Source: Stenotrophomonas sp. ZAC14D1_NAIMI4_1
GTDB taxonomy: Bacteria; Pseudomonadota; Gammaproteobacteria; Xanthomonadales; Xanthomonadaceae
DNA: 64,000 bases
NCBI RefSeq assembly: GCF_003086775.1
Contig: NZ_CP026001.1
Coordinates: forward strand, 3,188,407-3,252,406
Reading direction: 5' to 3'
Shown here: positions 6,131 to 17,125 of the stretch, one piece after another
Position numbering within the stretch: the stretch's first letter is position 1
How the letters are laid out: every line of letters starts with the position of its first letter
Position numbers and translations under genes: made by a program
Notes under the pieces: generated by a model
What the model was told of the DNA's origin: nothing
Databases searched by the model: none
Seen by the model: the letters and a program-made list of their open reading frames with translations, nothing else

Positions 6131-7015
6131 ATGAGCACCTCCCTGCTGCCGCCGCTCAATGCCCTGCGTGCCTTCGAGGCCACCGCCCGCCTGGGCGGCG
6201 TGGGCCGCGCCGCGCAGGCCCTGCACGTCACCCACGGTGCGGTGAGCCGGCAGCTGAAACTGCTGGAAGACCATTTGGGGTTGCCGCTGTTCCAGCGCGC
6301 CGGGCGCGGGCTGCGCCTGACCGAGGCCGGGCAGCGCCTGCATGCGGCCTGCGGCGAGGCCTTCGCCGGCATCGAGGCCTGTGTGCGCGAACTGCGCCAA
6401 CCGGCGCGCTCCCCGGCGCTGGTGCTGGGCTGCAGCGGCAGCGTGCTGGCGCGCTGGATGATTCCACGGCTGCCCGCGCTGCAGGCGGCCCTGCCCGGGG
6501 TGAACCTGCAATGGTCGGCCCTGGATGGCGCCTTCACCGAGGCGCAGGCGGCGCTGGACGCGGTCCTGCTGCTGGCGCAGGGGCCGTGGCCGCGCGGCTG
6601 GCAGGTGCGCGAACTGGCGCCGGAACGGGTGGGCGTGGTGGTGGCGCCCTCGCATCCCGCCGCGCAGCGGTTGCGCCATGTGCCGCCCCCGGCACTGCTG
6701 AAGGAGACGCTGCTGCACACCAGCTCGCGCCCGCAGGCATGGCCGGCCTGGGCGCAGGCGCATGGGCTGGACCCGGCGCAGTTGCAGATGGGCACCGGCT
6801 TCGAGCATCTGTACTACCTGCTGGAAGCGGCCGTGGCAGGCCTGGGGCCAGCGATCGCGCCGGAGCCGCTGGTGGCCGAGGACCTGGCCGCAGGGCGGCT
6901 GATCGCGCCCTGGGGATTCTCGGCGACAGGCGGGTTCTGGGTGCTGGCGCGGCCGGACGGCCCGGCCGACCCGCGCGTGGATGCGCTGGCCGAGTGGGCG
7001 ATGGCGCAACTGTAG
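6131..7015 (+). CDS. LysR-family transcriptional regulator, probably TrpI-like
   Basis: The 294-residue protein opens with a LysR winged-helix domain (residues about 8-67, including LNALRAFEATARLGGVGRAA and VSRQLKLLEDHLG), followed by a co-inducer-binding domain (about 90-290). The NALRAFEA-type opening is common in the GcvA/TrpI branch. It is divergent from trpB, so I infer it activates trpBA, probably with a tryptophan-pathway intermediate as signal. The stop TAG (7013-7015) is part of the GTAG head of a REP element. GcvA- or AmpR-like alternatives cannot be excluded from sequence alone, but gene position favours TrpI. Confidence 0.85.
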   Translation: MSTSLLPPLNALRAFEATARLGGVGRAAQALHVTHGAVSRQLKLLEDHLGLPLFQRAGRGLRLTEAGQRLHAACGEAFAGIEACVRELRQPARSPALVLGCSGSVLARWMIPRLPALQAALPGVNLQWSALDGAFTEAQAALDAVLLLAQGPWPRGWQVRELAPERVGVVVAPSHPAAQRLRHVPPPALLKETLLHTSSRPQAWPAWAQAHGLDPAQLQMGTGFEHLYYLLEAAVAGLGPAIAPEPLVAEDLAAGRLIAPWGFSATGGFWVLARPDGPADPRVDALAEWAMAQL

Positions 7016-7060
7016 CGTCGAGCTTGCTCGACTACCTCAGTCGAGCAAGCTCGACGCTAC
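7012..7060. repeat. GTAG REP palindrome with 21-bp perfect arms
   Basis: Arms 7012-7032 and 7040-7060 are perfectly complementary around a 7-base loop. The element begins GTAGCGTCGAGC and supplies the last codon position and stop of the LysR gene. It lies between that gene and the convergent TelA gene, where the hairpin could end or protect both transcripts. Confidence 0.85.
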
Positions 7061-7083: not shown

Positions 7084-8193
7084 TCAGGGTGCCGTGGGTG
7101 CGGCCAGCCGCTGCTGCAGGTCTTCGCGCAGGCGCGACAGTTCGACTTCGGCCTGCTGGCGCTGCTGCATGCCTTCGCGATGGATGCTGCGCACTTCCTC
7201 CACCGTGGCGATCAGCTGGTCGTGTACGTGGCGCAGCGTGGCCACGTCGATCACGCCACGCTGGTTGCTGCGTGCGGTATCCACCGACGCCTGGCGCAGC
7301 AGATCGGCATTGCGGCGCATCAGCTCGTTGGTGGCATCGTCGATTGCGGTGGACAGCTCGACCGCGGCCTTCTGCTCGCCCAGCGAAAGCTGGATGGCAA
7401 ACTGGCGCTTCCACGACGGGATGGTGATCTCGCGCACCGTGTTGAATTTTTCGATCAGCTGCAGCGCGTTGGCCTGGATCAGGCGGATCATCGGCAGCGA
7501 CTGGTCGGCCGCGTGCTGCATCAGCTGCAGGTCGGACACGCGCTTTTCGATCAGGCGGATCGCGTTGTCGACCTCGCTCTGGCGGATGCGCTGCTGCGGG
7601 TCGTCGCTGCCCTGCCCTGCCAGCTGCTCGGCCTGCAGTTCGGCCAGGCGCTGCTTGCCGGCGGCTGCGTACAGGCCCAGCGCGTGGCGCTCCTCGCGCA
7701 CGATCTCGTGCATGCGGTCGAACTCGCCCACGCGCTTGCCCATCAGCGCCTGCTGCACGCCCACGTCGCCCAGCAGCTGCTCGATCTGTGCGTTGGTGTC
7801 GCTGAACTTCTGCACCAGTTCGCCCTTGGACACGCGCAGGCGATCAATCAGGCCGCCGATCACCGGCACCTTCGAACGCTGGGCGAAACCGTCCAGTTTC
7901 AGGCTGCGCGCGATGCGCACCACTTCGCCCAGCTTGTCGCCGCTGGCATCGAGGTCGCGGTTGCGAACCTGGTCCAGCAGCTGGCTGGAAAACGCTGCCG
8001 TGCGCGTCGCGGCCTCGCGGCCGAATACCTGCAGGTTGCCCGGGCGCAGGTCGTCCAGTTCCATGCGGATCTCGGCGATGCGCGGCAGGTCCTCGCGGAC
8101 CAGGCCCAACGCCTGCAGCGCGCCTTCGTCGAGTGCGGAAGGGGTGGCCGGGGTCGGCACGAGGGTGCCGGGGTGCTGGCTGTCCTGGGTCAT
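7084..8193 (-). CDS. TelA/KlaA-family toxic anion resistance protein
   Basis: This 369-residue, almost wholly helical protein matches the TelA family. Typical stretches are LDQVRNRDLDASGDKLGEVV near the N-terminus, a GLIDRLR segment, and a C-terminal half with ERHALGLYAAAG and NQRGVIDVATLRHV. TelA proteins were named for tellurite resistance on plasmids, but chromosomal members commonly sit with membrane-stress genes and their biochemistry is unknown. There is no signal peptide, so it is cytoplasmic or peripheral to the membrane. It is the last gene of the operon at 17.1-7.1 kb and starts 44 bp after the unknown helical protein. Confidence 0.85.
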   Translation of the reverse strand: MTQDSQHPGTLVPTPATPSALDEGALQALGLVREDLPRIAEIRMELDDLRPGNLQVFGREAATRTAAFSSQLLDQVRNRDLDASGDKLGEVVRIARSLKLDGFAQRSKVPVIGGLIDRLRVSKGELVQKFSDTNAQIEQLLGDVGVQQALMGKRVGEFDRMHEIVREERHALGLYAAAGKQRLAELQAEQLAGQGSDDPQQRIRQSEVDNAIRLIEKRVSDLQLMQHAADQSLPMIRLIQANALQLIEKFNTVREITIPSWKRQFAIQLSLGEQKAAVELSTAIDDATNELMRRNADLLRQASVDTARSNQRGVIDVATLRHVHDQLIATVEEVRSIHREGMQQRQQAEVELSRLREDLQQRLAAPTAP

Positions 8194-8237
8194 CGGGCAG
8201 TCTCCTTGCAGGTGGGTTGGCGGCAGCGGCGGCCGGC

Positions 8238-8945
8238 TCAGCGCAGTCTAGCCTGAGCCGCCGCGACCTCGTCGTCGATCTGTGCATGCAGCGTGGCCGC
8301 CTGGCCGGCACGGGCCGCGCCGGTGGCGGCCTGCGCGGCCAGTGCGGCCTGCCGCCACGCTGGCAGCAGGACATCGTGGATGCGGGCGAAGCGCTGCAGC
8401 AGCACCTCGTCCTGTTGCTGCAGCAGCTGCCACTGCCCGGCTTCGATGCGGCGCAGTGCCGCCAGCCGCTGCAGGTGGTCGATGCGCGCCGCCAGTGCTT
8501 CCTGGCCGGCGCCCTGCAGCGCTGGCACGTCCGCAGCGGCCGCATCCGCCCAGGCCTGCAGTGCTTCGGCGGCCTGGCCGGTCGCGCTGATCGCGGTGGC
8601 ACGCACGGCCATGTGCTGCTGCAGCTGCTGGGCCTGCTCGCGTGCCTGCAGGGCGAGGACCCCCAGCTGCGACTGCAGGCCGCGGCCTGCGGCCTCACGC
8701 TCGACGTCGCGGCCAAGCAGGCGGCCCCACCAGCTTTCCTGCCGGCGCAGGCGTGCCGGGTCGGCAGCCTGCAGCGCCAGTGCGATGCGTGCCAGCGCCT
8801 CGACCAGTCCATCGCCGGCGGTCGCCGGCAACGCGACGTCGCGCGCGGCCAACGCCTGCAGCAGCGGTGCGCCGTAGTCGGCCAGGCGTGCGACATCCGC
8901 CGTGTCCGGCCGCTGCGGCGTCGGCAGGGGCGCCGCGTCGGTCAT
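8238..8945 (-). CDS. Uncharacterised helical protein between the giant ATPase and TelA
   Basis: The 235-residue product is rich in Ala, Gln and Leu and is predicted by eye to be mostly helix with coiled-coil tracts (about 95-125 and 150-190). A recognisable WWGRLLGRDVERE motif lies near residue 70. It has no signal peptide and no membrane segment. I do not recognise a family. Its ATG overlaps the TGA of the giant ATPase gene (ATGA at 8945-8942), so it is translated from the same mRNA, and TelA follows directly. The position suggests a linker or adaptor between the ATPase and TelA; that is inference only. Confidence 0.8.
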   Translation of the reverse strand: MTDAAPLPTPQRPDTADVARLADYGAPLLQALAARDVALPATAGDGLVEALARIALALQAADPARLRRQESWWGRLLGRDVEREAAGRGLQSQLGVLALQAREQAQQLQQHMAVRATAISATGQAAEALQAWADAAAADVPALQGAGQEALAARIDHLQRLAALRRIEAGQWQLLQQQDEVLLQRFARIHDVLLPAWRQAALAAQAATGAARAGQAATLHAQIDDEVAAAQARLR

Positions 8946-11900
8946 GGCAACGGCGGCGGCATCGGCGCGCTTCCCGCCGGGGCGTCGTCAGTGGCTTCCG
9001 GTGGCAGCGACTCGCCGTAGAAGTGGCGCATCAGCGCCTCATCCAGTGCGCGTTCCTCCGGCGTGCTGGCCCGCCGCACGCGCGGACGACGCGCGGTGGT
9101 GGTGCTGGCGCCGGCCGCGCCTTCGACCTGCTGCCGCGCCCACCCGGCGAAGGCCGCCAGGGTCTGCGATACCTGTTCCTGCTGTGCCTGCGAGGCCACC
9201 AGCAGTTGCACCAGCGGGGCCAGCCCGGCCTGCAGATCCTCGGCCAGCGGCGTGGCCGGGGGGCTGGGCGCAGCAATCACCACCGGCTCGGCGGGCTGCA
9301 CGGCGGCCGGTGCTTCCGGGCGTGCTTCGGCCAGGCGCTGCAGCGCTTCCAGCAAGGCCGGCCACGGTGCCGGATCCGCCGCCACCTGCGGCGCAGCCGG
9401 TGGCGGCAACTGCAGTGCACTGGCGATGTCGGCCAGCTGCGCGACCACGCGACCACCGACATCGCTGTCGTCGGCACCCATGGCCTTGTTGCGCAGGAAA
9501 TCGCGCTTGATCTGCGCCCAGCGCTGCGCCTGCGCCTCGTCCAGCACGCCGCGCAGCTCGCCAAGCTTCAGCAGGTTTTCCTCGGCGCCGGTGGTCAGCA
9601 GCTGCGCCTCGCCCAGGTAATGGTCGGAGATCAACTGCTGCAGCTCGTCCTCGTTCATCACCGGCGAGATCTTCTCGGCCAGCTTGTTCATGTTGCGGTA
9701 GCTGCCCTGCAGGCGGAACGGCGGCTCGGTGCGGTAGCGGTCATCCTGCGCGGCGCTGGCGATGTACTGCTGGTTGACCCGGTAGACCACGTCGCGCACG
9801 CGCAGCATGCGCTGCAGGGTGGCGGTGATCTCGTTGATCTCGGCACCGCTGTAGGCATGGCTGAGACCGTTGGTCGACACGTCCTTGCCCATCGCACGAT
9901 CGACCAGCAGGTACAGGTCGGCCATGTCACGGGTCGCCAGCGGTGCCAGCACCGGGTTGGAGGTCAGGCTGTTCTCGATGTAGCTGAGGGTGAACGCCGC
10001 TTCCATGCCGCCCAGCACGTCGCCGAGGTTGTAGATGTCGGCGCGGTTGGCCAGCATGTCCGGAATCTTGAACACCTCGCCCGACTCGGTATACGGGTTG
10101 CCGGCCATCACCACGCAGAACTTCTTGCCGCGCATGTCGTAGGTGCGCGTGCGGCCGCGCCAGACGCCTTCGATGCGGCGGGTGCCATCGCACAGCGAAA
10201 TGAACTTCTGCAGGAACTCGGGATGGGTGTGCTGGATGTCATCCACATACAGCATGGTGTTGTTGCCCATCTCCAGGGCCAGGTTGAGCTTTTCCAGCTC
10301 CTGCCGCGAGGTGGCGTCGGGCGCCTGCTCCGGGTCCAGCGAGCGCACGTCGTGGCCCAGTGCCGGGCCGTTGATCTTCATGAAGACCAGGCCCAGCCGA
10401 TGCGCCACGTATTCCATCAGCGTGGTCTTACCGTAGCCCGGCGGCGAGATCATCATCAGCAGGCCCATCAGGTCGCTGCGCTTGTTCTCGCCCACCGTGC
10501 CCATCTGCTTGGCCAGGTTGTCGCCGATCACGCCGAGGTAGACGTCGTTGATGAGCTTGTTGCGCACGAACGAGGACAGCGGCCGCGCCTTGAACTCGGA
10601 CAGGCGCAGGGCCTGCCGCTCACGGCCGATGATGCCCTGGCGCACCGCCTGGTAGGCATGGAATGCCGGCACGAACTGCTGCAGGTGGGCGTGCAGACGG
10701 GCGAGGAAATCATCCAGCGACAGCGCCAGGGTGCCCTGCACGATGCGCGGATGCTCGCCGAGCAGGCCGTTCACTTCCACCCGCAGCGTGGCATCGCTGG
10801 CGCGCGTGCGCAGCTGCCGCTGCACCAGCAGCAGTGCGGCGGCCTCATCGGTGTAACCGGCATGGGCGGCCTGCGCCGGCAGCCGGCCCAGCGCGCGCAG
10901 CCACTGCCCGGCCAACGCCCAGCGCAGCGGCAGCGGATCCTGTCCACGCTGCAGCGCGCGTTCCAGTGCTTCGCGCTGTCCCGCCTGCTCCAACTGCTGC
11001 TGCAATGCCTCCAGCAGTGCCAGCGCATGGCGGCTGCTGGCGAATACCGGATCGCCCGCGCTCAGTTCGTCACCGAGATAGGCAGCGGCACCTTCGATCG
11101 CGGCGGCGTCGAACGGCAGGGCCTGCGCCTGCACGAACGCATCCAGCGCAGCGGCCATCTCCGCGCGCAGCGCCTGGCGTCCTTCGTCGGAACCAAACAG
11201 GCGGGCGATGGCATCGGCACCGGCCTGGCGCGCCGGCCACTGCGCCACGGCCTCGTTGCGCTGCTCGGCGGCCCAGAACAGCATGGCCAGTGCGCGGACG
11301 CGCGGTGCATGGCGCAGGCTGCCGGCGGCCTGCTGCAGCGGCAGCAGGGCGTGCAGGATCAGCGCCGCATCGTGGTCATGGATGCCGCGCTCATACCCCT
11401 CGCGGTAACGCGGCGCGGCGAACGCACGCACGCGCTGGTCCAGCGCCTCGGGGCTGGCGAGATCGTGCTTCAGCTGGGCCATGTCCAGGCCATCGCGGCC
11501 GTCCTGCGCGGCCAGCAGCAGGCTGCCGGCCAGGTACTCGCCGCGGTAGATCGCATCGGATTCCGAATCCAGGGTCACCGGCCAGAACGGCTTGAGCGCC
11601 TCCAGCTCGGGGTCGTGCAGGGTTTCCAGGAAATCGGTGCCGGTGAGGTGGATGGCCAGCGTGTCGCCGCGCGGCAGCAGGGTCAGGTCCAGCGCCTGGG
11701 TGTTCACGCTGAAACGGTGGCGCGGGCCGAGCCGGACGACGTTGCCGCCGGCTTCGTACAGGTCGCTGCGGTCACGCAGCTGGCGCACGGCCTGGTCGCG
11801 CACGCCCTTCAGGCGCGCCTCGATGTCATCGGCCTTGACGTTGTCGCGCAGCGCACGCAGTCGCTCGGCCAGTTCGCGCAGCTTGAGGATCAGCGGATCG

Positions 11901-14350
11901 CCGGCGAAGAACGCGTTGAGCTCGTCGGCGGTGGCGAAGCGCTCGGTGCGCTTGGCCAGGCCATCGAGGATGCGGTTGGCCGCGTCGAGCACCGAGCGCG
12001 CCTTGCGCTGGCGGTCGTCCAGCAACGCCTGCTTGTGCGTCTCGAAGGCTTCGACCAGTTCCTCGCGCTTGCTGAGGATGTCGCCGAGGAACTGCTCGTG
12101 CTCGCCGAACTGGCTTTCCAGTTCCTCCAGCTGCACCAGCAGGCGTGACAGCTGTTCGTCGGCCTTTTCCGGATCGTTGGCCATCGCCAGCGCACTGGTG
12201 ATGGACTGCGAGAACAACGCGAACTGTGCGGCGAACTGGGCCACGGCCTCGGCCGAGCCGAGCGTGCGGCGGCGCTGTTCGGCACGCGTGCGCGCCTGGT
12301 TCAGCCGCCCGTACAGCGCGGAAATCGACTCGACCACGCGGGTACGCGCGGTGGCATCGTCCACCTTCAGGCCGGCCATCAGTTCGGACAGCATGTCCAG
12401 GTCGGCGGCCATGCCACGCATGCCGTCCAGCTGCTCGTCCAGCTGGCGCGCACTGCTGGCCTGCTGGGCGGCTTCATCCAGTGCCTGCAGGCGGCTGCCC
12501 AGCGGTGCCAGTGCGGCATCGCCGGCCAGGAATTCGCCGGTGGCGGCGCCCACGCGATCCTGCGCCTGCACCAGTTCGGCGGCCATCGCCTCGATGCGCG
12601 CGGTGTCGATGTAGCGCAGCTCGCGGATGGTCAGCAGCCGCCCGCGCAGCGCGGTGATCTCGTTCAGGGCCTCGACGAAGGCCTGCACCTCGTTCCAGTT
12701 CTGCGGCTGCAGGCGGCCCAGCAGCGCCTTGTAGTTCGCTTCCGCCTCGACCATCGCCTGCGCCGACTGCTCGCGGATGGACTGGACCTTCTCGTACTCG
12801 TCCAGCACCGACTCGCCCGTGGCGCTGATCTGCCGCAGCAGCGCTTCGGCGCCGTCGCAGGCCTCGTCCCCCAGCCAGTGGTGGGTATCGAACAGGCGGC
12901 GGGTGTCGGCCACCAGGCGCTGGTAGCGCTGCACCGAGACATCCTGGCCGTCGATCTCGCGGGACAGGTTGAACAGGTTGGAGATGCCGCGCACCAGTTC
13001 GGCATTGCCGATGCGGCCCATGAAGGTGTTGCCGGGCGGCCGGCTGGCGGCGAACTCGTCGCTGCTGAACGGCGTCTGCCAGACCTGCATCGGATGGATG
13101 CGGGTGGGTTCGGCGCCCTCGGCATGGAACAGCACCATGCGCCCATCCTGCATGAAGGCATAGCCGTGGCCGAACACCGGGTTCTGCAGCACGCGCTGGA
13201 TGGTGTTGTAGACGAACAGCGCTGAGCGTCCGCCTTCGCGCTCGTAGAAGATGTAGAGCACGTCCTCGCCGTTGGGCGAGCGGATGCTGCGCTTGAACTG
13301 CATGCCGGCCATCGAGGCATCGAAGGCCTTGTGCTCGCCGCCCTGCAGGTAATAGCCGCCGGGGAAGATCACGCCGTGGTCTTCGGGCAGCTGCACGCAG
13401 GCCTGGACGATGGCGTCGTTGCGCACGATATCGCCGGTGAGCGTGTTGTAGATCAGCCCGCGCCAGACGGTCTCGCGGTACGGCAGCACCTTCAGCAGCA
13501 GCAGCGAACCGACGCGCGCGAATTCGAACTGGGCGTCGTCCAGCGACTGCGTGCTGTCCTCCACCGGTTCGCTGTAGATGCCCTGCCCGGTTTCGGTGTT
13601 GTTCTCGACCTTGATGGTCAGGTCGCCACCGGTGGTTTCCACGAACAGGGTGTCGAGGATGTTCAGGTGCGAGTGGCGGCCGTTGACCGCGAGGTCGCGG
13701 GTGGCCTTGGTCCATTCGAAATCGAACGGCGGCGGCAGGGCGATATCGCGTTCGCCGCGCGCATCGAGGTAGGTCAGCTCGCCTTCGCGCGACAGCGCCC
13801 AGCGGAACACGCGCACGTCGCTGCTGCGCTCGCCGATCTGGAACGATGCCAGCAGCTTGTCGCCGACCACGATCAGCTGCAGCAGGCGCGCATGCTTGTA
13901 GTAGGCGTACAGCTCGTTGAAGTCGTGCACGAAGCCGGGCTGGTCGAGGAAGCTGCCCTTCAGCTCCAGCGCGGCCACATCGTAGCCGTCCTTGCCCTGC
14001 ACCAGCCGGTACAGGCCGAACACATCCTCGATGCGGGTATGGGTCTTGAGCCCGATGTAGACGTTGTAGCCGAACAGCAGGCGGTCAGGCCCGACCTGGA
14101 CGATGTCACGGCCGACGCAGTTGTTCTCGCTGCGGATGCGGAAGCGACCGACTACCTCCAGCCGGCTGTCGCCGAACTCGGCCAGTCGCTGGCGGTTGAG
14201 GGCTTCGGCCAGCGCCTGCAGGCGCTGGCCCTGTTCGCCAAGGCGGCGGCGCAGGACTTCGTAGGCACCGCCCTGGGCAACGGCCTGGTCGACGGTGTTG
14301 CCGCCGGCCTCCGGCGCGGTGGTTTCGGCGGACGGATGGGTTTCAGACAT
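8942..14350 (-). CDS. Giant AAA ATPase of the DUF3686 'DNA repair ATPase' type, 1802 residues
   Basis: There are three zones. Residues about 1-460 are beta-rich and match what I recall of the DUF3686 family (annotated as 'ATPase involved in DNA repair'), for example VGRDIVQVGPDRLLFGYNV. Residues about 460-830 are long charged helices, probably coiled coil. The C-terminal third holds an AAA domain with Walker A PPGYGKTTL near residue 1303 and Walker B TMLYVDD near 1367, followed by VVMAGNPYTESGEVFKIPDM, a sensor-1-like segment. The tail is Ala/Pro-rich and ends in a basic patch. The 'DNA repair' label is historical and nothing in this neighbourhood supports it; flotillin and TelA neighbours point to membrane stress or integrity. 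A stable hairpin separates it from flotillin. Confidence 0.88.
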   Translation of the reverse strand: MSETHPSAETTAPEAGGNTVDQAVAQGGAYEVLRRRLGEQGQRLQALAEALNRQRLAEFGDSRLEVVGRFRIRSENNCVGRDIVQVGPDRLLFGYNVYIGLKTHTRIEDVFGLYRLVQGKDGYDVAALELKGSFLDQPGFVHDFNELYAYYKHARLLQLIVVGDKLLASFQIGERSSDVRVFRWALSREGELTYLDARGERDIALPPPFDFEWTKATRDLAVNGRHSHLNILDTLFVETTGGDLTIKVENNTETGQGIYSEPVEDSTQSLDDAQFEFARVGSLLLLKVLPYRETVWRGLIYNTLTGDIVRNDAIVQACVQLPEDHGVIFPGGYYLQGGEHKAFDASMAGMQFKRSIRSPNGEDVLYIFYEREGGRSALFVYNTIQRVLQNPVFGHGYAFMQDGRMVLFHAEGAEPTRIHPMQVWQTPFSSDEFAASRPPGNTFMGRIGNAELVRGISNLFNLSREIDGQDVSVQRYQRLVADTRRLFDTHHWLGDEACDGAEALLRQISATGESVLDEYEKVQSIREQSAQAMVEAEANYKALLGRLQPQNWNEVQAFVEALNEITALRGRLLTIRELRYIDTARIEAMAAELVQAQDRVGAATGEFLAGDAALAPLGSRLQALDEAAQQASSARQLDEQLDGMRGMAADLDMLSELMAGLKVDDATARTRVVESISALYGRLNQARTRAEQRRRTLGSAEAVAQFAAQFALFSQSITSALAMANDPEKADEQLSRLLVQLEELESQFGEHEQFLGDILSKREELVEAFETHKQALLDDRQRKARSVLDAANRILDGLAKRTERFATADELNAFFAGDPLILKLRELAERLRALRDNVKADDIEARLKGVRDQAVRQLRDRSDLYEAGGNVVRLGPRHRFSVNTQALDLTLLPRGDTLAIHLTGTDFLETLHDPELEALKPFWPVTLDSESDAIYRGEYLAGSLLLAAQDGRDGLDMAQLKHDLASPEALDQRVRAFAAPRYREGYERGIHDHDAALILHALLPLQQAAGSLRHAPRVRALAMLFWAAEQRNEAVAQWPARQAGADAIARLFGSDEGRQALRAEMAAALDAFVQAQALPFDAAAIEGAAAYLGDELSAGDPVFASSRHALALLEALQQQLEQAGQREALERALQRGQDPLPLRWALAGQWLRALGRLPAQAAHAGYTDEAAALLLVQRQLRTRASDATLRVEVNGLLGEHPRIVQGTLALSLDDFLARLHAHLQQFVPAFHAYQAVRQGIIGRERQALRLSEFKARPLSSFVRNKLINDVYLGVIGDNLAKQMGTVGENKRSDLMGLLMMISPPGYGKTTLMEYVAHRLGLVFMKINGPALGHDVRSLDPEQAPDATSRQELEKLNLALEMGNNTMLYVDDIQHTHPEFLQKFISLCDGTRRIEGVWRGRTRTYDMRGKKFCVVMAGNPYTESGEVFKIPDMLANRADIYNLGDVLGGMEAAFTLSYIENSLTSNPVLAPLATRDMADLYLLVDRAMGKDVSTNGLSHAYSGAEINEITATLQRMLRVRDVVYRVNQQYIASAAQDDRYRTEPPFRLQGSYRNMNKLAEKISPVMNEDELQQLISDHYLGEAQLLTTGAEENLLKLGELRGVLDEAQAQRWAQIKRDFLRNKAMGADDSDVGGRVVAQLADIASALQLPPPAAPQVAADPAPWPALLEALQRLAEARPEAPAAVQPAEPVVIAAPSPPATPLAEDLQAGLAPLVQLLVASQAQQEQVSQTLAAFAGWARQQVEGAAGASTTTARRPRVRRASTPEERALDEALMRHFYGESLPPEATDDAPAGSAPMPPPLP

Positions 14351-14401
14351 CAGCAGGCTTCCGGCTTACGGACGGCCGGCCGTGGTTGCGGCCGGCGCGG
14401 G

Positions 14402-14430
14402 CGGGCGGTGGCCGCAACGGCCACCGCCCG
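14402..14430. other. Stable 13-bp hairpin between flotillin and the giant ATPase genes
   Basis: The arms 14402-14414 and 14418-14430 are perfectly complementary with a CAA triloop. There is no U-tract on either side, so it is not a standard terminator. Its place 6 nt after the flotillin stop suggests an mRNA processing or stability element that makes flotillin more abundant than the ATPase. Confidence 0.6.
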
Positions 14431-14435
14431 GTGCA

Positions 14436-16454
14436 TCAACGGGCGCTGTCGACCACGGCGGCCGACACGGTCGGCGCTGCGTCGGCGTCCTCGGCGATCT
14501 GCCGCGGTGCCGGTTCGGCCACGGCCACGCCCAGGTAGCGCTGCATCAGCTCCTGCACGATCGGGCTCTTGCCGGCGAAGCCTTCGATCGACTTGCCCAG
14601 CGACACGGCCTTGACCAGGTTCTCGAACATGCCGCCGTCGCCACCGACCAGGTCGATGTCGGCATTGCGCAGCGCGCTGGCGATGACGTTGGCGTTCTCG
14701 CGCGAGACTTCCTTGCCCGCTTCGATGGAGGCCAGTGCCTGCTTCAGGCTGTTGTCCAGCATCATGCGGAACTCTTCGTGGCCACGTGCCTGGTCGCTCA
14801 GCGAGGCGATGGCTTCGAACTTGCGCACCAGGCCTTCGGCTTCGGCCAGCAGCTTCTTCTGCACCACGCCGGCTTCGGCATTGCCCAGCGATTCGGTGGC
14901 GGTGGCGCGGGCCAGGCCCATCTTCTCTTCGCCCTGGGCCTGCGCCTGCAGGGTTTCGGCCAGCACGCGGGCCTCGTTGCTGCCCTGCTTCAGGTTGGCT
15001 TCGGCCTTGGCTTCGATCACGCGGGCTTCGGCGATACCGACCTTCTCGATGGCCAGTGCGGAGGCTTCACGCACCTGCGCTTCGGCCAGGCCCGGCGCCG
15101 CCTGTTCGGCACGGAAGGCGTCGGCCAGCAGGCGCTTGGCTTCGGCCTGCTTGCCGGCCGCTTCGTGTTCGGCCTGGGCCAGGGTGGTCAGTTCCACCGC
15201 GCGGTGCTTGGAGGCGGTTTCGCGGGCCTGCGCTTCCTTCACTTCGCGCACCAGCGATTCCTGCGCCTTGGCTTCGGCTTCCAGGATCAGCACCTGCTTC
15301 TGGCGGTCGGCCTCGGAGACCTCGCGCACTTCCTTGATGCGCTCTTCTTCCTGGGCCACGGTCTTGTCGATGGAGATGCGTTCGCGGGTGATGTTGGCCA
15401 CGTCCATCTTGCCCTGCTCGACCACCTTGTCACGCTCGACGCCCTGCAGCTGCACTTCGCGGTCGGTGGTGACCTGTTCCAGCTGGCGCGCGCGCTCCAC
15501 CCGCTCGGCTTCGATGGCCACCGCACGCTGGCGGTTCTGTTCGGCCACTTCCACTTCGCGCAGGCGGTTCTGGTCACGGATGTCGATCAGCTGCTGCGCT
15601 TCGATGCGTGCGTTCTCGGACAGCTGGCGCTGTTCTTCCTGCACCTTGGCGGTCTCGGCTTCCTCGCGGGCGCGGATGGTCTCGATCTCGCGCTTCTGCC
15701 GTGCCTCGGCCTCGGCCTGCTGGCGTTCCAGGGCCAGCAGGGCTTCGCGCGCTTCCACGTTCTTCTTGGTGATGGCGAGCTTCTCGTTCTGCTCCAGCTC
15801 GTTGGTCACCACGTTCTGCGCAGCGGTCAGCTCGGTGATCTTGCGGATACCCTGCGCGTCGAGGATGTTGAACTGGTCCAGCAGCGATTTCGGGGTCTGC
15901 TCCAGGTAGTCGATGGCCACGTCTTCCAGCACATAGCCGTTCAGGTCGTTGCCGATGACCGCGATGATCTCGTCGCGGAATTCCTGGCGCTTCTCGAACA
16001 GCTCGGTGAAGTCGAACTTCTTGCCGACCGTCTTCAGCGCTTCGGAGAACTTGGCGTTGAACAGCTCATCGACGGCATGCTTGTCCGAGGCACGGTCGGC
16101 GCCGATGGCCTTGGCCACGCGCAGCACATCGGCCTGGGTCTCGTTGACCCGCAGGTAGAAGGCCACGGCGATGTCGGCGCGCATGTTGTCGCGGCAGATC
16201 AGGCCCTCCTTGCCGCGGCGGTCGATCTGCAGGGTGATCAGGCTGATCCGCATCAGCTCGGCGCGGTACAGCACCGGGATGATCAGCGCACCGGTGAAGT
16301 GCACCTTGGGCGTGGCGCTCATGTCGTTGACGATCAGGGCCACGCCCTGGTCGACCTTGCGGTAGAACGCCTTGAACAGTCCCGCCAGGCCGAGCAGCAG
16401 GCCTACGAGGACGATGATCCCGATCAGGAAGGGGGCCGCGCCAGCAAAACTCAT
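14436..16454 (-). CDS. YqiK-like flotillin (SPFH/Band 7 protein)
   Basis: Residues about 7-30 form one membrane helix, followed by an SPFH/Band 7 domain (about 30-200, with VALIVNDMSATPKVHF and a DMRADIAVAFYLRVN-like strand). Then comes a very long Glu/Ala/Gln/Arg-rich coiled coil (about 200-560) and a short helical tail. At 672 residues it is longer than E. coli YqiK (about 550). Flotillins oligomerise at the inner membrane and scaffold microdomains. Its ATG shares one base with the stop of the YqiJ-like gene (TGATG at 16456-16452). YqiJ-YqiK is a conserved pair in E. coli, so coexpression is expected. Confidence 0.93.
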   Translation of the reverse strand: MSFAGAAPFLIGIIVLVGLLLGLAGLFKAFYRKVDQGVALIVNDMSATPKVHFTGALIIPVLYRAELMRISLITLQIDRRGKEGLICRDNMRADIAVAFYLRVNETQADVLRVAKAIGADRASDKHAVDELFNAKFSEALKTVGKKFDFTELFEKRQEFRDEIIAVIGNDLNGYVLEDVAIDYLEQTPKSLLDQFNILDAQGIRKITELTAAQNVVTNELEQNEKLAITKKNVEAREALLALERQQAEAEARQKREIETIRAREEAETAKVQEEQRQLSENARIEAQQLIDIRDQNRLREVEVAEQNRQRAVAIEAERVERARQLEQVTTDREVQLQGVERDKVVEQGKMDVANITRERISIDKTVAQEEERIKEVREVSEADRQKQVLILEAEAKAQESLVREVKEAQARETASKHRAVELTTLAQAEHEAAGKQAEAKRLLADAFRAEQAAPGLAEAQVREASALAIEKVGIAEARVIEAKAEANLKQGSNEARVLAETLQAQAQGEEKMGLARATATESLGNAEAGVVQKKLLAEAEGLVRKFEAIASLSDQARGHEEFRMMLDNSLKQALASIEAGKEVSRENANVIASALRNADIDLVGGDGGMFENLVKAVSLGKSIEGFAGKSPIVQELMQRYLGVAVAEPAPRQIAEDADAAPTVSAAVVDSAR

Positions 16455-17125
16455 CAGTGATTCTCCTTGTTGCCCGGAAGCAGGTTGTCCTGGAAATCGA
16501 GGGCGACCGCATCAGCGCGGACCACCCGGTAGTAATGGTGTTCGGCCACGTGCTCGACCAGCACGATGCGCTCGCCACGCTGCAGTTCGATGTCGCTGCG
16601 CACCTGCAGCACCAGCCCGGCACCGCCGTCATCGACCGTGGCGTGGCCGCTGCGCGCATCCACCCGGGGCGAGGCGACCACGCCCACGCGCCCCAGCAGG
16701 GAGGCCTGTGCGACCGGCTGCAGGCGCTGCAGGAAGGTGCGGATGGGCCGCAGCAGCAGCGCGGTGATCGGCACCGCCGGCAGCGGCGCGAGCACGGCCA
16801 CGAGCGTGCCGAAACCCCAGCGCAGCAGGTCCGGCAGCGGCAACAGTACGAACAGATGGATGAAATAGGTCAAGGCCCAGCCGAAGAAGCCCAGCAGGGT
16901 GACCACGACCATGACCGGCACGCCACCGAGGCCGAAGCGCTGCAGCAGGGCCGAGAGGCCGCTGAGATCGGTGTCACTGTCCAGCGCACCATCGGCGCCG
17001 AGATCGCCGAACCCGTCATCGACGAGGCCAAAAGCGGCAAGCCCCCAATAGACCAGCGACACCGCCAGCAGGACGCTGTACGGCAGGGTCGGGTAGCCGA
17101 ACACGACGGTGAGGAATTCCTGCAT
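16454..17125 (-). CDS. YqiJ-like membrane protein with C-terminal OB-fold
   Basis: This 223-residue protein starts with a hydrophobic segment (about 10-32), then an acidic loop, then two further hydrophobic segments (about 68-90 and 97-118). It ends in a soluble region of about 90 residues (GRVGVVASPRVDARSG...) resembling the NfeD/YqiJ OB-fold. In NfeD-flotillin pairs the OB-fold domain binds the SPFH partner. It is the first gene of the five-gene operon and has a good ribosome binding site (GGAAGG). The only promoter space is the 187 bp up to the trpF stop. Confidence 0.85.
   Translation of the reverse strand: MQEFLTVVFGYPTLPYSVLLAVSLVYWGLAAFGLVDDGFGDLGADGALDSDTDLSGLSALLQRFGLGGVPVMVVVTLLGFFGWALTYFIHLFVLLPLPDLLRWGFGTLVAVLAPLPAVPITALLLRPIRTFLQRLQPVAQASLLGRVGVVASPRVDARSGHATVDDGGAGLVLQVRSDIELQRGERIVLVEHVAEHHYYRVVRADAVALDFQDNLLPGNKENH

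Follow-up and report, generated by a model that had tools for sequence, protein, structure and literature searches.

We analyzed a stretch of 64,000 nucleotides (nt) from Stenotrophomonas sp. ZAC14D1_NAIMI4_1 (the window; NZ_CP026001.1, positions 3,188,407 to 3,252,406). It contains a five-gene operon coding for a YqiJ-like membrane protein, a flotillin-type scaffold protein, a giant DUF3686-type AAA+ ATPase, a protein of 235 amino acids (aa) and TelA. Sequence comparisons indicate that the 235-aa protein is itself a diverged TelA relative, that this TelA pair was gained once behind the ATPase gene, and that a DUF2170-PspA gene pair was lost later. The core of three genes has already been described; the TelA pair, the identity of the 235-aa protein and the exchange of PspA are new insofar as we did not find them in the open-licence papers searched, which also yielded no paper on a TelA-flotillin-DUF3686 operon. 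TelA is widespread and tied to resistance against membrane-active peptides, and its function is not settled. A lineage in which the TelA pair appears while PspA weakens and then disappears offers a direct test of PspA-like membrane work by TelA, and the operon supplies a candidate AAA motor for it. The change from PspA to TelA suggests a testable job for the TelA family.

Gene content and TelA kinship of the 235-aa protein

The five open reading frames (ORFs) are close-packed on the minus strand. As claimed in the initial annotation, which a model had made from the letters alone, the YqiJ-like and flotillin genes overlap by 1 nt and the genes for the ATPase and the 235-aa protein by 4 nt; the two remaining intergenic gaps are short (85 and 44 nt). 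An independent codon-usage gene caller written for this analysis recovered the same five genes, and all five are under purifying selection, with ratios of nonsynonymous to synonymous substitution rates (dN/dS) of 0.02-0.44 in 33 gene comparisons across 7 related loci.

16454..17125, minus strand: YqiJ-like membrane protein gene, first in the operon (223-aa ORF)
14436..16454, minus strand: flotillin/SPFH-type scaffold gene (672-aa ORF)
8942..14350, minus strand: DUF3686 giant AAA+ ATPase gene (1802-aa ORF)
12878..14221, minus strand: DUF3686 domain of the ATPase, residues 44-491 (PF12458 match)
10076..10459, minus strand: AAA domain of the ATPase, residues 1298-1425 (AAA_5, 30.6 bits, cut-off 22)
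8238..8945, minus strand: gene of the 235-aa "unknown", by profile homology a diverged, shortened TelA paralogue (235-aa ORF)
7084..8193, minus strand: TelA gene, last in the operon (369-aa ORF; PF05816, 241 bits)

The assignment of the third gene to giant AAA ATPases of the DUF3686 type was borne out by Pfam matches to PF12458 (640 bits), PF25472, AAA_5 and AAA, corresponding to DUF3686, DUF7902 and AAA domains; the DUF3686 region has been termed a beta-propeller by Ravi et al. (PMC11237479). Comparison with the sequences of solved structures matched AAA-type stretches only. In 102/102 aligned relatives, the Walker-type residues GYGKTT, DD and NRAD are unchanged, which suggests from sequence that the ATPase is an active motor. 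Its tail (residues ~1644-1802, window positions 8942-9421) is missing from the matches to distant relatives, and in members of the TelA clade it often terminates in an E..LD.AL-like helix; this tail is a possible partner-binding region.

The flotillin and YqiJ-like genes are placed directly upstream of the ATPase gene by gene order and homology, and their support at the Pfam level is weak. Neither product, nor the 235-aa protein, had a Pfam match at E 0.01. The flotillin-like protein gave a weak collinear match to FloT (E 0.0086) and shares 29% identity (E ~1e-18) with plasmid genes of E. coli that carry the annotation "flotillin family protein"; closer relatives annotated as flotillin are a further basis for the name. 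Four relatives likewise had no SPFH match in Pfam, and a sequence search of solved structures returned no match for the flotillin. The YqiJ name is taken from the initial annotation, from Ravi et al. and from gene position.

The PF05816 match of the last gene lies far above the cut-off of 30 bits and is the sole TelA match in the genome, confirming its identity. For the 235-aa protein, evidence came from its relatives. Among 41 of them, PF05816 was the family matched most often (9/41 at E <=1, best E 3.2e-7). When ten were scanned singly, two matched TelA (24.8 and 18.8 bits, against the cut-off of 30), and one of these two aligned to positions 8-250 of the 332 in the PF05816 profile (E 1.4e-5). 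Aligned with hhalign, the profile of the 235-aa family matched canonical TelA with a score of 49.9 (P 2.7e-6 to 4e-6, probability 87-89%), whereas none of 100 column-shuffled versions of each TelA profile reached the real score (best 23.7) and the profiles of other operon families, PspA included (P 0.0024), gave P 0.0024 or worse. The match was weaker with the operon's own TelA alone (P 3e-4) and with the widest TelA set (P 5.6e-5). At the center of the alignment lies conserved sequence around P-W-(K/R)-Q.

We conclude from this profile homology that the 235-aa protein is a diverged, shortened TelA paralogue, and hence that the operon ends in a TelA pair. The "unknown helical protein" of the initial annotation is thus a TelA relative; its structure is predicted with confidence (pLDDT 89.3) as a set of long helices. 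TelA is the better conserved of the two (mean column identity 71% vs 37%). The fold-search lists of both proteins include helical bundles of ClyA and BAR type, too generic for use, and the best match of TelA among the sequences of solved structures had an E value of only 0.24. A tblastn search with the paralogue against plasmids found none. TelA relatives occurred in 88 phage records (matches H44-H58), including those of the large-phage hosts Caulobacter, Klebsiella and Erwinia.

Gain of the TelA pair and loss of PspA

A scan of named genomes yielded 146 relatives, the best 80 of which were kept; together with the window they make 81 loci, whose layouts were derived by gene calling, clustering and Pfam naming. 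The layout is modular: DUF2170 - PspA - YqiJ - flotillin - (83-aa gene) - ATPase - (paralogue - TelA) - (PLD), PLD being a phospholipase-D gene. YqiJ, flotillin and ATPase are nearly always together, with clusters in 73/81, 77/81 and 81/81 loci, the missing ones including short contigs and split gene calls, and the YqiJ-like gene is immediately upstream of flotillin in most. The TelA pair sits behind the ATPase gene in 47 of the 80 fetched loci and in the window; TelA is never found there without the paralogue, both are retained together in all 48 loci, and the median ATPase-paralogue overlap is 4 nt. The neighbors thus do not vary freely: the order ATPase-"unknown"-TelA, predicted to recur in other genomes, did so in 48/48 TelA-bearing loci, and it is the flanking genes that differ between genera.

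DUF3686 is rare, matching in 8/398 genomes of the phylum and 2/13 of the genus (own genome included in both) and in 26/200 of the order; TelA was found in 39/200 genomes of the order. In the family of the window, TelA and DUF3686 match in the same three genomes and no others (G000, G484 and G524). The DUF2170-PspA pair is present in 36 of the 80 fetched loci, and sister loci keep DUF2170, PspA and the phospholipase-D gene. The pair is absent at the window locus and no PspA was found in the window's own genome; the window operon therefore appears to be a derived variant.

The order of events was read from a FastTree phylogeny of 100 ATPases, in which the loci with TelA make up a single group at full local support; the sole exception inside it (L021) is a contig that ends in the ATPase. 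Of the 49 rows of this group, 12 have PspA at the locus. The 37 without it comprise 36 that fall in a single subclade, with Stenotrophomonas, Xanthomonas and Luteimonas among its genera, and L035, a contig that starts at YqiJ. This grouping and the distribution of PspA indicate that the TelA pair was gained once and that DUF2170-PspA was then lost once.

PspA was also searched for in the whole genomes of 49 locus-bearing strains. Among the 29 with the TelA pair, 19 had no PspA, 10 a weak match (39-75 bits) and 0 a strong one; among the 20 without the pair, PspA was strong (136-181 bits) in 18 and weak in 2, one of which is a Marinicella genome (L079) with a TelA-family gene of its own in the operon. 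A swap of TelA for PspA is well supported by these comparisons.

The Marinicella contig belongs to a lineage (f94) in which 8 of the 10 genomes of genus g240 with DUF3686 have an upstream TelA-family match on the same contig, above the cut-off in 6; the other 2 carry DUF3686 on fragments. PspA scores 60-69 bits in the four g240 genomes listed; in three g228 genomes, whose loci have no TelA-family gene, it reaches 122-125 bits. As judged from gene content, TelA has come together with a weakened PspA a second time, and separately, in this lineage. The assignment of the Marinicella upstream protein to TelA comes from PF05816; hhalign found no direct kinship with the short paralogue (P 0.44) and none with the other TelA profiles built (P 0.066-0.31). 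In Lysobacter xinjiangensis (L033:4623-5378), the short TelA paralogue is present a second time, upstream of DUF2170, the position of the Marinicella TelA-family gene. A 113-aa protein without a Pfam match (L139:14975-15316) occupies the PspA-YqiJ interval in Marinicella relatives, and a gene of similar size is present at that place in loci of another lineage (f97).

Some further variants were seen. Twelve plasmid records from Proteobacteria, Deinococcus, actinobacteria and Hymenobacter carry the ATPase, and the same 12 carry flotillin; in the 4 with usable annotation no TelA was named beside the ATPase, several products there being unnamed. On plasmid pQBR103 (L148), one gene run comprises DUF2170-PspA, rhomboid, DUF2491, DUF350, DUF1190, glutathionylspermidine synthase, a gene in the YqiJ position, SPFH and the DUF3686 ATPase, so that two published types of PspA operon adjoin. 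The small acidic 83-aa gene (L029:9587-9847 and relatives), which several Lysobacter and Pseudomonas loci carry either between flotillin and ATPase or close to DUF2170, looks TerB-like by eye only, without a convincing Pfam match.

Proposed working of the operon and alternatives

Ravi et al. (2024; PMC11237479) described the YqiJ-flotillin-DUF3686 ATPase core together with a DUF2170-PspA pair, as a DUF2170(CesT/Tir)-PspA / band-7-flotillin / beta-propeller-AAA+ / YqiJ-YuaF operon. In their proposal, sub-membrane complexes are built by the AAA, band-7 and CesT/Tir partners, and PspA plus AAA is compared to ESCRT-III plus Vps4. The window operon shares with theirs the YqiJ-like gene, the flotillin and the giant AAA+ ATPase in identical order but is without DUF2170, PspA and PLD and ends in the TelA pair. 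Abbreviated operons without PspA are also mentioned, and the main text contains 0 occurrences of "TelA" and "toxic anion". The six co-transcribed genes bacABCDEF of Pseudomonas aeruginosa, with BacA a DUF2170 protein and BacB a PspA, match the ancestral layout in number and start (PMC10948618). They differ from the window operon in that TelA is not mentioned in the parts of that paper drawn on, and in their proposed sigma-54 promoter: a similar site was without support at the loci studied (4/73 upstream stretches, vs 2/73 on the control strand). Of the multi-protein membrane system envisaged in the initial annotation, the conserved unit is borne out, and a membrane-associated envelope-stress AAA machine fits both papers; its core is not novel, this operon associated with the phage-shock protein (PSP) response having been described.

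Two Gram-positive systems offer parallels. In Bacillus and Listeria, xpaC-yaaN likewise combines TelA (as YaaN is stated to be; PMC12791056) with a partner gene within an envelope-stress regulon. In Listeria, the XpaC-TelA pair is reported to be induced along with the PSP response, and a telA disruption mutant is cited as 2-fold more sensitive to tellurite and 4-fold more sensitive to nisin (PMC12791056). Unlike there, the partner in the window is a TelA relative, and the genome has no match to XpaC (PF10112). In Bacillus subtilis pspA-ydjGHI, an SPFH protein and integral membrane proteins position an ESCRT-III-type protein at the membrane, the SPFH protein being required to bring PspA there; that system, as described in the parts drawn on, has no AAA motor and no TelA (PMC8581546). 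The sigma-W regulon of B. subtilis jointly holds pspA-ydjGHI, yuaFG(floT), yqfA, xpaC-yaaN and yceC-H (PMC3498285).

We give about an even chance to the following reading: the operon is a derived PspA-associated YqiJ-flotillin-AAA operon whose TelA pair works where PspA did, under the AAA+ motor, for envelope maintenance. An ancestor in the Lysobacter/Stenotrophomonas group would have acquired the TelA-family gene pair behind the ATPase and later lost DUF2170-PspA, whereby the TelA pair became the only cytoplasmic helical partner left. YqiJ and flotillin would build an inner-membrane scaffold on which TelA and its short paralogue, mostly long helices, may gather when the envelope is stressed, as PspA does in other systems. 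The giant AAA+ ATPase would spend ATP to remodel or recycle them, by analogy with Vps4 and ESCRT-III, the proposed logic being that of a motor recycling helical membrane-bound polymers. The likeness is one of analogy only, since TelA has no sequence match or significant fold match to ESCRT-III. Given the published parallels and the swap, membrane work of the TelA pair under the ATPase is the best-supported reading. A bolder version, which we hold only tentatively, makes TelA the functional counterpart of PspA and ESCRT-III: a two-subunit inner-membrane coat with a DUF3686 motor and a flotillin-YqiJ anchor, in a PspA-free phage-shock-type system that would have arisen in the Lysobacter/Stenotrophomonas group and, separately, in relatives of Marinicella.

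Several observations weigh against the main reading. The TelA and PspA profiles do not align (hhalign, P 0.38), the structure model of TelA is moderate (pLDDT 71.7), and fold searches with the models of the paralogue and of TelA (Foldseek and VIA-align) found no significant match. Since the TelA loci are one clade, the contrast in PspA amounts to about one event plus the Marinicella case, and the many genomes are not independent. A PspA more diverged than PF04012 can detect would be missed. All 13 genomes of the genus are without PspA, and 11 of them are also without the operon, so neither is essential and the loss of PspA in the genus is independent of having the operon today. One further genome (L064) has a weak PspA, none at the locus, and a TelA elsewhere. 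Finally, f97 and G154 have no TelA at the locus, and yet the gene in the place of PspA, flanked by DUF2170 and YqiJ, is recognized as PspA only weakly or not at all (weak in 3 of 8 loci, none over 1e-3 in 5); PspA can thus drift from other causes, and its divergence needs no TelA. Where listed, these genomes have other, stronger PspA copies.

Among the alternatives, a role in membrane-protein quality control is rather unlikely. Flotillin and YqiJ would gather misfolded membrane proteins and the AAA motor unfold or extract them, with the TelA pair as an adaptor instead of a remodelling coat. SPFH proteins and AAA motors cooperate elsewhere (HflKC with FtsH), and the large non-ATPase front part of the ATPase would suit recognition, but none of the five genes codes for a protease and this explanation does not predict the exchange between PspA and TelA.

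A module for resistance to toxic anions (tellurite) or metal ions, suggested by the TelA family name and by the tellurite sensitivity of the Listeria mutant, is improbable: the genome has 0 matches to the partner TerD (TerC was not searched), the unit contains no metal transporter, and the larger published effect, as cited, concerns the membrane-active peptide nisin. The toxic anion response proposed in the initial annotation was therefore not upheld. We see equally little reason to think that the TelA pair is only co-transcribed with the membrane core and has its function elsewhere. TelA does occur without DUF3686 in many genomes, as the counts for the order indicate, but the pair is coupled to the ATPase by the 4-nt overlap, is not lost inside the clade except at a contig end, and has a second association of its family in the Marinicella lineage. 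Anti-phage defense, also proposed initially, would fit the patchy occurrence in the genus, the variable insertion site and the presence of a membrane partner for the AAA ATPase; it is very unlikely, as only one of the five proteins gave a weak partial PADLOC match (LmuB, E 4e-4, coiled coil of the ATPase, residues 513-859), the neighboring genes are trp, truA and LysR, no toxic effector domain was recognized, and the phage collection contained no match to the ATPase.

Insertion site and operon ends

The operon interrupts the trpF-trpBA neighborhood, as first noted, with the added detail that a LysR gene on the opposite strand separates it from trpB. In the 11 operon-less genomes of the genus, the distance between LysR and trpF is 33-554 bp in 6 and ~2.8-3.0 kb, filled by other DNA, in 3 (L168, L171 and L172), and trpF was not found within the fetched stretch in 2. 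The ~3 kb of other DNA suggest that this junction may be a variable site. The insert of L171 contains a 618-aa ORF with a lysozyme/peptidoglycan-binding look and a lipoprotein-like ORF.

One further feature lies at the probable downstream end of the operon:

7012..7060, no strand: perfect 21-bp inverted repeat between the converging TelA and LysR ends

Two exact copies lie on opposite strands, where 0 are expected. The repeat, which we take to resemble a repetitive extragenic palindrome or a terminator, is probably the operon end; it was not scored as a T-tailed terminator. A scan for sigma-70-type promoters found 0. A Stenotrophomonas-type locus with 83% identity and the same trp flanks was also present in a record titled Bacillus subtilis SK7B5 (L017), probably owing to contamination or mislabelling.

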